A DNA stretch of 42,031 nucleotides from Longimicrobium sp. (lineage in GTDB: Bacteria; Gemmatimonadota; Gemmatimonadetes; Longimicrobiales; Longimicrobiaceae), in NCBI GenBank assembly GCA_036389795.1, contig DASVWD010000153.1, forward strand, positions 1-42,031. Direction: 5' to 3'. Position 1 is the stretch's first letter. Every line of letters begins with the position of its first letter. This document shows, in pieces, positions 12,249 through 34,425 of this stretch. The notes beneath the pieces are model-generated. The model made no database searches and was not told where the DNA came from. It was given only the letters and a program-made list of their open reading frames with translations. A program made the position numbers and the translations under genes.

Positions 12249-13040
12249 TCATTCTGGAGAAAGTTTGCTGACGATCCGAGCGCACTCGTCGAAGCACAGA
12301 CGCAGTGTTGCCTGGATCTCGGCGTCCGTGAGTGGTTTGAGCAGACGAAGCGGGAAGAGTGAAAGGAGGGGCTTGTCCATCGCACGAGCGAATCCCTGGC
12401 CGACGTACCGGGCGTCGATTCCGGGATCGATCAGGATCAGGTCGTCGAGCAGAGTGCGGAACCGGGTACGCAGGAGGGTTTCGTCGACTGGCTCATTACC
12501 GGCGGGGCGGTGCAGGATCGCGTGCAGATCCACGTAATCGCGTGCCTCGAACCGGTCGCAGAGCGCGTGCAGCTTCCCCGCGCAGACGTCACGGAAAGAC
12601 GCGATTCCAATCCCCTCCTCGGTAGGCTCAATCGATTCGAGCAGGAATGGTGAGGTAGCAGCGAAGTCCACCCGCACTCCAGTCGCTTCGCCGCCGTCAC
12701 GCTCGCGGGCGATGAAACGAGCGAAACCCGCCGTCTGTGGCCCGGCAACCTCAAAGTCCACCCCCTCACGCGCGAGCTCGTCTCGCACCCGCTCACCGAG
12801 CGCTCGCGCGTTCAGCGTCAGTCCTCCGAAGACGTCCAGATCCTCCGACTGGCGATGGCTCAGATAGAAGGCCGCGAGCGCCGTACCGCCGTCCAGCCGA
12901 AGATCCGGCACCTCCGTCGCATCATTGGCGCGCGCAACCGCTCGCAACACCTGAACGTGCAACTCACCGATAACTTCAGGATCGTGCCTAAGCACGGGCG
13001 GCTCGCCGGGACTTTTCCGCGCGCCGGAACTCCAGAACAC
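12249..13040 (-). CDS. AbiEii/AbiGii-type nucleotidyltransferase (putative toxin)
   Basis: The protein (up to 263 residues) has the AbiEii nucleotidyltransferase signature: LRLDGGTALAAFYLSHRQSEDLDVF, with the GG loop and metal-binding D67 and D69, then VCAGKLHALCDRFEARDYVDLHAI, with the conserved lysine and RDxxDL block. Members of the family add nucleotides to tRNA or other RNA and act as type IV toxins. The start is uncertain: GTG at 13040 overlaps the upstream small gene by 53 bases, while GTG at 12995 (first 15 residues removed) overlaps it by 8 and looks more natural. Base composition is less extreme than in the neighbours, consistent with transfer. Toxicity is inferred from the family. 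Confidence 0.88.
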   Translation of the reverse strand: MFWSSGARKSPGEPPVLRHDPEVIGELHVQVLRAVARANDATEVPDLRLDGGTALAAFYLSHRQSEDLDVFGGLTLNARALGERVRDELAREGVDFEVAGPQTAGFARFIARERDGGEATGVRVDFAATSPFLLESIEPTEEGIGIASFRDVCAGKLHALCDRFEARDYVDLHAILHRPAGNEPVDETLLRTRFRTLLDDLILIDPGIDARYVGQGFARAMDKPLLSLFPLRLLKPLTDAEIQATLRLCFDECARIVSKLSPE

Positions 13041-13278
13041 GGCTCCAGAACAGGCGCGTGTGCTCGGGAATGACCAGTTCGGGAAGTTGACGTTCCAGCA
13101 CGTCGAACGGGACGAGGTCGAAGATGGCCTTCAGACTTCCTTCCCGCAGGAGACGGGCGACGATCATGGGGTGATCGGCCAGGATCGGCTCCTCCGGCTT
13201 CATGTCCCAGAACAGCTCCGGGTAGTCGCCGTACCGCGGCGGGTCGTGCGTGTCCTTTCGCTCAGCCGTGCTCGCCAT
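12988..13278 (-). CDS. Small protein paired with the AbiEii-type toxin (putative antitoxin)
   Basis: This 96-residue protein has no signal peptide or membrane helix. It contains YPELFWDMKPEEPILADHPMIVARLLREGSLKAIFDLVPFDVLERQLPEL. Small proteins with a FWD.KPE block of this kind (DUF6922-like, from memory) often precede AbiEii nucleotidyltransferases. Its position directly upstream of and overlapping the toxin gene fits antitoxin-first order. No typical AbiEi winged helix is evident, so if it is the antitoxin it belongs to a different type. Antitoxin activity is an inference from context. Confidence 0.75.
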   Translation of the reverse strand: MASTAERKDTHDPPRYGDYPELFWDMKPEEPILADHPMIVARLLREGSLKAIFDLVPFDVLERQLPELVIPEHTRLFWSRVLEFRRAEKSRRAARA

Positions 13279-13345: not shown

Positions 13346-15028
13346 TCAAGTCTCCCGCAGCCGCTCCTCGATGGCGGGGTCCGGCTCGACGAAGACCGTC
13401 TTCGCCTGGAGGAGGGTGACGCGGCCGGGCGGGGCGCCGCGGGGCTTGCGAACGTACCTGCGGCGCGTCCAGTCCACGGCCACGGTGCCCGACGAGCGCG
13501 CCTTGCTGTGCAGCGCCGCCAGCACCGCCGCCTCCTCCAGGTCGCGCGCGGGCGGCGCGCCCTCGCCCGCCCAGCGCAGCACCACGTGCGAGCCCGGCAC
13601 GGAGCGCGCGTGCAGCCACACGTCGCCGGGCGCCGCGTGGCCGAAGGTGAGCCGGTCGTTGTCCTTCGAGGTGCGCCCCACGCGCACCTCCAGCCCGCCC
13701 GAGGTGCGGTAGACGCGGAACGGCTTCCGCGCTTCCGGCGCCGCCTGCGCCCGCGGCTCGCGCGCCTCCGCCCGCCCGAGCGCCGCCTCCACCCACTGCG
13801 GCGCCTCGCCCGCCTCCAGCGCGCGCACCGCCCCGTCCCAGCGCGCCGCCTCGGCCTCCGCGCGCTCGATCAGCCCCGGCAGGCGCTCCTCGGCGCGGGC
13901 GCGGCGGCGCGCCTCCTCATACCAGCGCTCCGCGTTCTCGTGCGGGCGCAGCGCCGGGTCGAGCGGCACCTCCACCTCGCCGCCGTCGAAGCCGGGGAGC
14001 GTGACGACGGCCGCGCCCGCCGGCACCAGGTGCAGGTGCGCCAGGAGCAGGTCGCCGCGCGCGCGCAGCCGCTCCGCCTCGCCCACGCCGGCGCGCTCCG
14101 CGTGCAGCCGCTCCACCCGGCGCCGCGCCCCCTCCAGCCGCCTGCGCGCCCGCTCCAGCAGCCCCGTGCGGTCCCGCGCCGCCGCGTCCTCCTCCCCGGC
14201 TTCCGCGACCGCATCCATCGCCGCCAGCAGGGAAGGGAAGCAGCGGGACGGAATCCCCTCCAGCGGCGCGGGATACGGCTGCGGCCCGCCCTTCGCTTCC
14301 AGCAGCACCGGCTCCGCGTCCGTCCCCGACGCCAGCGCCCACCAGCGCGCGAACGCCCGCTCCAGCGCCTCGCGGTCGTCCGACGCCGCCGCGTCCCCCA
14401 GCAGGGCGGCGGCGTTGACGGGGCTCGTCCCCGCGAAGCCCCGCAGCAGCTCGCCGCGCCGCTCGGCCGGGGGGAGCGGTCCCAGGCGCGCCATCCACTC
14501 GTCGCGCGCCACCTCGCGCGCGTGCCCCTGCGCGCCGAAGCGCCGCTGCGGCTCCGGCGGGCGGTAGACCTCGCCGGTGCGCAGCACGCGCCCGCCCGCC
14601 TCGCGCGCGCGCAGGACGGAAACGATGCGCCGGTCGTCGCCGTCCACCAGCAGCGCGTTCCACTGGTTGGTGTGCAGCTCGACGACCAGCGAGCGCGTCC
14701 CCCCGCGGAAGCGCCCCCCCTCGTGCAGGTCGACGCGCAGCATCCGCTCGTCGGGCGGCGCGCCCACCCGGACGATCCGCGCCGTCATCTCCCCGGGAGG
14801 CACTTTCGCACTCTCGCACTCTCGCACTTTCGCACTCAGCACCCGGATCCACCCCCGCGCCGGGTGCAGGTCGAACCGCAGGCACTCCCCCCGGTCCAGG
14901 AAGAGCGTCGCGGAGAGGTCGCGGTCGAAGACGGGCGAGGGGTGCGCGAGGCGGCCGGCCAGGCGCGCGTGCAGCTCGGCGGCCAGCGCGCGGACGAGGG
15001 GCGGGTCGTAGCGGACGGCGTTTGACAC
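13346..15028 (-). CDS. rqcH: RqcH-like NFACT protein (ribosome quality control)
   Basis: RqcH binds the 50S subunit carrying an obstructed nascent chain and, with tRNA-Ala, adds C-terminal alanine tails that mark the chain for proteolysis. The product (560 residues) has an NFACT-N-like region (about 1-210), a central helical coiled-coil region (about 250-420), and the NFACT-R domain (about 435-485) with YRTSGGLEVRVGRTSKDNDRLTFGHAAPGDVWLHARSVPGSHVVLR, the family hallmark. The start is GTG at 15028. Residues 65-76 (SAKVRECESAKV) translate an 8-base tandem array (14801-14838) that looks inserted into the N-terminal domain. The strictly conserved basic residues of the N domain could not be aligned by eye. 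Confidence 0.88.
   Translation of the reverse strand: MSNAVRYDPPLVRALAAELHARLAGRLAHPSPVFDRDLSATLFLDRGECLRFDLHPARGWIRVLSAKVRECESAKVPPGEMTARIVRVGAPPDERMLRVDLHEGGRFRGGTRSLVVELHTNQWNALLVDGDDRRIVSVLRAREAGGRVLRTGEVYRPPEPQRRFGAQGHAREVARDEWMARLGPLPPAERRGELLRGFAGTSPVNAAALLGDAAASDDREALERAFARWWALASGTDAEPVLLEAKGGPQPYPAPLEGIPSRCFPSLLAAMDAVAEAGEEDAAARDRTGLLERARRRLEGARRRVERLHAERAGVGEAERLRARGDLLLAHLHLVPAGAAVVTLPGFDGGEVEVPLDPALRPHENAERWYEEARRRARAEERLPGLIERAEAEAARWDGAVRALEAGEAPQWVEAALGRAEAREPRAQAAPEARKPFRVYRTSGGLEVRVGRTSKDNDRLTFGHAAPGDVWLHARSVPGSHVVLRWAGEGAPPARDLEEAAVLAALHSKARSSGTVAVDWTRRRYVRKPRGAPPGRVTLLQAKTVFVEPDPAIEERLRET
14801..14838 (-). repeat. rqcH: 8-base tandem array inside the rqcH-like reading frame
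   Basis: Four to five copies of CACT(C/T)TCG lie head to tail within the coding sequence. The same word appears between genes at 34146-34217 and 34360-34420. The unit length is not a multiple of three, so gain or loss of one unit would shift the frame after about residue 65. In this assembly the frame is open. Confidence 0.85.
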
Positions 15029-19138: not shown

Positions 19139-19236
19139 GTGCGTGAGTGGGCGTGAGTGCGTTGGGACCGGAACAGTTACGGCACTAACGCACTAACGCA
19201 CTAACGCACTAACGCACTAACGCACTAACGCACTTG
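19139..19236. repeat. 8-base tandem array CACTAACG with inverted left arm
   Basis: Six to seven copies of CACTAACG run from about 19184 to 19234. A looser inverted arm (GTGCGTGAGTG repeats) lies at 19139-19167. The site is directly after the LytR_C gene and directly before copy B of the 145-bp element. It belongs to the same word family as 34146-34425. Confidence 0.8.
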
Positions 19237-33709: not shown

Positions 33710-34144
33710 ATGACCGACGAAGGCGTACTCGCCATCAACGACTCGCTCTGGGTGCCCCGGGCGGAGCTCACCTACCGGGCCACGCGCTCCGGCGGCCCGG
33801 GCGGGCAGCACGTGAACACCTCGTCCACGCGCGTGGAGCTGGCGTGGGACGTGGAGGGCTCGCCCAGCCTGACGGAGGAGCAGCGCGCGCGCATCCGCGA
33901 GAAGCTGGCGAACCGCATCAACTCCGAGGGCGTGCTGCTGCTGGCCGCCAGCGAGCACCGCAGCCAGCACCAGAACCGCGAGGCCGTCACCGAGCGCTTC
34001 GCCGAGCTGGTGCGCCAGGCGCTGGTGGTGCCCAAGGCGCGCAAGAAGACGCGCCCCTCGAAGGCCGCCCGCGAGGCCCGCCTGCACGCCAAGAAGCGCC
34101 GCTCCGAGGTCAAGCGCCTGCGCCGGAGCCTGCCGGAGGACTGA
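33710..34144 (+). CDS. arfB: Alternative ribosome-rescue factor B (peptidyl-tRNA hydrolase)
   Basis: ArfB releases peptides from ribosomes stalled without a stop codon. The 144-residue protein has SGGPGGQHVNTSSTRVEL with the catalytic GGQ at 31-33, and a lysine/arginine-rich tail (KARKKTRPSKAAREARLHAKKRRSEVKRLRR) that reaches into the empty mRNA channel. The ATG at 33710 gives the family length. With the RqcH-like gene at 13346 this is the second stalled-ribosome factor in the window. Confidence 0.95.
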   Translation: MTDEGVLAINDSLWVPRAELTYRATRSGGPGGQHVNTSSTRVELAWDVEGSPSLTEEQRARIREKLANRINSEGVLLLAASEHRSQHQNREAVTERFAELVRQALVVPKARKKTRPSKAAREARLHAKKRRSEVKRLRRSLPED

Positions 34145-34145
34145 A

Positions 34146-34425
34146 AGTGCGTGAGTGCGTGAGTGCGAAAGTGCGAAAGTGCGAAAGTGCGAAAGTGCGA
34201 AAGTGCGAAAGTGCGAGGTACGGCGAACGCGGGCGCCGAATGCGGGTGGGGTTAATGCGGGTGAACCCGCGGCTGGAAATACGAGAAGCCTCGCCGACCT
34301 GAATCGCGGGAACGGATTCGGAGCGGCGAGGCTTCTCGCTACCTTCGCACTAACGCACTAACGCACTAACGCACTTTCGTACTCTCGTACTTCCGTACTT
34401 TCGCACTGCCGTACCTACACTATCT
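34146..34425. repeat. Large inverted repeat of 8-base words enclosing a second palindrome
   Basis: The left array (34146-34217) is GTGCGTGA/GTGCGAAA in tandem. The right array (about 34343-34420) is the inverse, CGCACTAA and then CGTACTTT-like words. Between them a perfect 15-base stem pairs 34282-34296 with 34324-34338 (CGAGAAGCCTCGCCG and inverse). The gap 34145-34514 contains no gene; its right end holds the GlsB-like gene leader. Confidence 0.8.

Follow-up and report, generated by a model that had tools for sequence, protein, structure and literature searches.

The window, i.e., the whole analysed stretch of 42,031 nt, belongs to a 7.5-Mb draft genome (G000) of 285 contigs and 72% G+C from the phylum Gemmatimonadota. 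On its minus strand, positions 13346-15028 hold an open reading frame of 560 aa without internal stop that starts with GTG at 15028. An earlier note on this DNA had called the gene RqcH-like, and predicted domains as well as modelled fold agree with this label. NFACT_N (1e-28) and NFACT-R_1 (2.2e-9) of Pfam are found above their cut-offs in the one protein, which places it in the NFACT family; a PDB RqcH entry is matched at 2.3e-34, and the RqcH and EfbA models of NCBIfam match as well, each under its cut-off. The best structural match of the AlphaFold model (mean pLDDT 86) is B. subtilis RqcH (8s1u_H, Z 22.6, 472 residues), with 7aqc_R as a further match to the same protein (Z 21.4). The rmsd of 24 to 8s1u_H probably reflects domain placement; the N-terminal part of the model taken alone matches 3doa at 3.1 rmsd. 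The gene, rqcH in the following, adjoins an AbiEii-type nucleotidyltransferase at 12249-13040 on the minus strand (Pfam 2.7e-18; type IV toxin-antitoxin), beside which lies a small ORF (12988-13278).

Within rqcH, positions 14800-14838 are occupied by an array of octamers, which reads G-CACTTTCG-CACTCTCG-CACTCTCG-CACTTTCG-CACTC on the strand shown and GAGTGC-GAAAGTGC-GAGAGTGC-GAGAGTGC-GAAAGTGC on the gene (minus) strand. That is, five CACT cores follow each other at 8 bp, separated by four NNCG spacers and with a CACT at each end. In the notation of the general unit CACTNNCG, the array is imperfect, since its units alternate as TT, CT, CT, TT. Tandem Repeats Finder (TRF) reports it at 14800-14837 with period 8, 4.8 copies and 90% match. 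With 13 occurrences, the word CACTYTCG exceeds the 2.6 expected for the window, and none of the shuffled sequences reaches 13. Sequence, TRF, shuffles and the in-frame ORF thus bear out the earlier observation of a repeated CACT(C/T)TCG word inside the coding sequence, including its reading as residues 65-76 (SAKVRECESAKV). A misplaced start codon, which would put the array outside of the gene, was considered and rejected: residues 1-64 align with the homologues of the family and show coding codon usage. The array is a direct one, without inverted partner, and has a fold z of -1.45.

Several of its codons are unusual for the host. AGT, AAA and CGA, as found in the array, are 1-3% as frequent in G000 as the preferred synonyms, and only about 0.2% of 35,145 coding windows have a codon-adaptation value as low as that of the array (0.20). 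The encoded residues lie in a length-variable loop of the NFACT-N domain (approximately 14783-14848, minus strand) between the strands E61-65 and E83-89. Here, most array residues have a pLDDT below 50 in the AlphaFold model, i.e., residues 68-75 between the two strands. Rare codons and low pLDDT fit a recent, tolerated stretch.

The loop also varies among relatives. Counted from the HP to the DER motif, its length ranges from 29 to 39 residues across the family and is 38 in G000. G011 and G012, which at 70-71% identity are the closest relatives, have a loop of 32 residues without repeat; it reads RIVPRPEGMDARLPDARI in G011. The G000 loop is 6 residues (18 bp) longer than in these two. The earlier note had proposed to compare residues 65-76 with RqcH homologues for signs of an insertion. 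In this comparison, the residues are absent from G011 and G012 and the loop is longer in G000, but an insertion that simply added the array would have lengthened the loop by 38 bp and not by 18 bp, such that some of the former loop sequence must have been replaced or lost.

The more distant congener G009 holds a different sequence at this place (CTG AGC GCG AAC GGG CGC GCG TCG GAA AGC GCG AAA GGG), which is identical to the G000 array at 29 of 39 nt, ungapped and in frame. Among 438,627 control coding windows, the best one shares 25 of 39 positions with the G000 array and none reaches 29. Judged by this comparison, G009 has a decayed in-frame array of equal length. Measured by G000 codon usage, the codon-adaptation value of the loop is 0.53 in G009 and 0.89 in G011. 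In a tree computed without the loop, G000 groups with the array-free species G011 and G012 (support 99/97) and G009 is found in another clade. Given this placement, G000 and G009 would have acquired their arrays in parallel, exchanged the patch, or retained an old array that is gone from the others. A site-pattern test for patch exchange between the two lineages gives no clear excess near the loop.

The common residues of G000 and G009 could also mark a constrained functional loop, with the repeat arising by coincidence or through selection on the protein. While 8 of 13 residues are indeed shared (LSAKVRECESAKV vs. LSANGRASESAKG), they are absent from all other relatives, including the sister species in which the rest of the protein is conserved. 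In addition, the array is at the DNA level an intact repeat of the family and includes very rare codons. The loop alignment largely refutes this reading, which we consider highly unlikely. A collapsed or chimeric join at the repeat, i.e., an assembly artefact, might be suspected because the draft is split into 285 contigs and arrays of this kind are found at some contig ends. The sequence on either side, however, belongs to a single rqcH gene, is in one frame and has a strong coding signal. A decayed copy is present at the same place in G009, and the region upstream of the gene is conserved among relatives, such that an artefact is very improbable.

The rqcH array is a member of a genus-level repeat family. 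Its 16-mer CACTYTCGCACTYTCG has 398 overlapping matches in the genome, while the reversed pattern has none. Of 21 genomes in the host's family, 9 contain it, and these are mostly congeners; among 200 genomes sampled over the whole phylum, 3 do, each a member of the genus. The sister unit CACTAACG is found in the genus only. The NN positions of array units are TT, CA, CT, AA, TC and few others, and arrays of 10-12 near-identical units are present in the G000 genome. Within the window, the family is also represented by 6.6 intergenic copies of the stop-bearing unit CACTAACG in an array at 19182-19234 (plus strand) and by an intergenic array about 5 bp past a stop codon (34143-34216, minus strand), which reads TGAAAGTG-CGTGAGTG-CGTGAGTG-CGAAAGTG and so on. 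About 130 bp from the latter, arrays of inverted orientation follow at 34346-34414 (plus strand). Many arrays are paired with an inverted one further on in this way, and a transcript hairpin could form between them. A second dispersed repeat, about cccggagcgcagcggagggacacgcccaa, adjoins several arrays, i.e., just past 19234 in the window and at the loci L078, L096, L100 and L103. At positions 3-90 of L088 (G000:C40), a draft contig ends within a long homogeneous array with 11 identical CT units. Given such a contig end inside a long array, long arrays may be under-counted in the assembly. Carriage of the arrays by viruses was rejected, as a viral contig collection contains no match to three YT units. 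Our literature search for such repeats in Longimicrobium or Gemmatimonadetes returned nothing relevant.

We also related array positions to genes in 1.94 Mb of G000 (121 stretches, some of which were picked for holding repeat matches), using heuristic gene calls by codon usage instead of a standard gene finder and counting arrays of at least three CACT cores. Out of 103 arrays, 93 are fully intergenic and 9 reach into a gene at its 3' end; the only one that is wholly intragenic is that of rqcH. For the control, 76% of random 38-mers are located inside genes. A looser search for decayed octamer arrays finds none in any other coding sequence of the sample, and arrays of 7-bp units with a GCACT core are intergenic there or overlap a gene edge.

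The placement is polar. The AGTG side of the arrays is at most 15 bp from the stop of the neighbouring gene in 39 of 52 cases and from a divergent start in 11 of 48, compared to 0 of 57 and 1 of 43, respectively, for the other side. This bears on whether the array is a DNA or RNA regulatory element of the divergent panB gene that lies in rqcH by chance. Its distance of about 300 bp upstream of panB and its CACT orientation would be compatible with such a role. The arrays, however, are anchored to gene edges via their AGTG side, with the other side within 30 bp of starts in 0 of 57 cases, and no unit is present in the 320 bp upstream of rqcH in any relative examined. A panB element is therefore a very unlikely explanation.

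The units also differ in their stop codon content. TT, CT, TC and CC units contain no stop in any frame of the two strands; in CA units, only the AGTG strand carries one (TGA), and in AA units both strands do. Stop-bearing units are part of 71/103 arrays, and 32/103 are without both CA and AA. All nine arrays that overlap gene ends contain CA units, and where we inspected the junction itself, the stop codon of the gene either comes from the array or is overlapped by it. The rqcH array consists of TT and CT units only, i.e., it has no stop-bearing unit. This is consistent with a survival of stop-free arrays within genes, here for a single case. Together, the data suggest that the fate of an array follows its stop codon content.

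An in-gene location is not limited to rqcH, a restriction that we rejected based on dnaE2 and NRPS cases in congeners. These loci form a small sample chosen by array pattern, which gives no rate. In G011, an NRPS A-domain (L175, G011:C65, 1291-1512) contains 83 extra residues in frame; inverted octamer arrays delimit this insert, and the gramicidin synthetase structure is contiguous at this position. Further on in the same gene, a second stretch of about 80 codons looks non-coding. One loop of a dnaE2-like gene holds in-frame repeat inserts in four congeners (G000, G011, G012 and G017), with open frames and differing units. The insert of G011 (G011:C127, L199) comprises about 60 residues with octamers, the one of G017 (G017:C16, L200) octamers of other composition, while G012 (G012:C133, L201) and G000 (G000:C140, about 101640-101714, L202) have heptamer arrays of the form (AGTGCCC)n...(GGGCACT)n. 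The hairpin of the insert is near-perfect in G012 (z -12.6) and weaker in G000 (z -4.6). The dnaE2 loop offers a natural series for how arrays arise and change in place.

Of the two interpretations offered in the earlier note, the first is a phase-variable RqcH: slippage by 8-bp units would shift the frame at codon 66 and reversibly switch ribosome rescue on and off. The underlying arithmetic is correct. Removing one unit would lead to a premature stop at codon 368 and adding one to a premature stop at codon 84; the frame is lost for changes by one or two units in either direction and kept for three. Furthermore, the near-identical arrays of 10-12 units in the genome imply that unit numbers do change over time, and heptamer arrays within the coding sequence are known to switch neuO in E. 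coli K1 (PMC13001214). There, about 20 units (3-53) are common and strains differ, while rqcH has only 4.8 units that are broken by T/C differences. In addition, the repeat decays at unchanged length in G009, and the array type is family-wide and not directed at rqcH. The decayed copy also comes close to what the earlier note had named as speaking against its claim, i.e., homologues with the same residues in non-repetitive codons: G009 encodes part of the residues in this way. Fewer than five imperfect units and the equal length in G009 leave the switch without positive support, and we regard it as quite improbable. A repeat length that threatens the frame is on its own no evidence of phase variation.

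The second interpretation, i.e., entry of such arrays into genes wherever the reading frame happens to survive, is well supported by the array type being otherwise intergenic, by the stop-free units, by the variable loop and by the dnaE2 and NRPS parallels. We thus favor, with a probability of roughly 0.8, that a genomic repeat came to lie in a tolerant loop of rqcH, where it is in frame and read through without being a dedicated phase switch. According to this explanation, an array of the CACTNNCG family, which usually lines the edges of intergenic regions, would have become embedded in the coding sequence by insertion or replacement, with an NFACT-N loop that tolerates length changes as host site. 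It could persist because CACTTTCG and CACTCTCG units are stop-free in all six frames, because the net change is a multiple of three and because the loop is presumably dispensable. The array would be translated as protein and then drift towards the codon usage of the host, as seen in G009. It would represent a selfish or neutral repeat. More speculative, and rather doubtful at present, is the wider idea that arrays turn over in place within conserved genes (four species for dnaE2, two for rqcH), such that stop-free units enter loops while stop-bearing ones cap gene ends, which would create variable linkers and gene ends and possibly slippage-based switching in some genes.

Small interspersed repeats that are in frame within unrelated genes and contain no stop are known from the Rickettsia palindromic elements (RPE) and, in enterobacterial genes, from ERIC/RU (PMC10969869, PMC2759123). 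Similar to RPE, the repeat is translated in conserved genes whose orthologues lack it (rqcH, NRPS, dnaE2). On the other hand, RPE are palindromic, about 150 bp long and form several families, while the rqcH array is a pure 8-bp direct array that is not palindromic. The dnaE2 and NRPS inserts resemble RPE in layout more than the rqcH array does, as they have an inverted array at either end. Direct-repeat arrays, besides palindromic elements, can thus be translated in core genes, which is shown here for a little-studied phylum.

Among short direct repeats, the TAACTGA heptamers of marine Beggiatoaceae form many sets that are mostly intergenic and oriented at gene edges (PMC4679880). One of their orientations stops all frames and can only end ORFs, while the other is found inside ORFs (PMC4679880). 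They are mostly placed just upstream of starts, in contrast to the Longimicrobium arrays, which are mostly located just past stops (the 39 of 52 within 15 bp given above) and have a different, variable unit. The cyanobacterial STRR heptamers are short tandem repeats between genes that are capable of forming hairpins (PMC2670836). Both STRR and the Longimicrobium arrays are dispersed and mostly intergenic; unit and host differ. The octamer CACTNNCG works alike but does not belong to the same family as the published heptamers (STRR, TAACTGA). With neuO, the rqcH array shares a unit length not divisible by three and a location in the 5' part of the coding sequence; the many identical units that define contingency loci are replaced here by 4.8 imperfect ones. 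Overall, the Longimicrobium arrays differ from STRR, TAACTGA and RPE in their unit, in their polar placement past stop codons and in being direct arrays.
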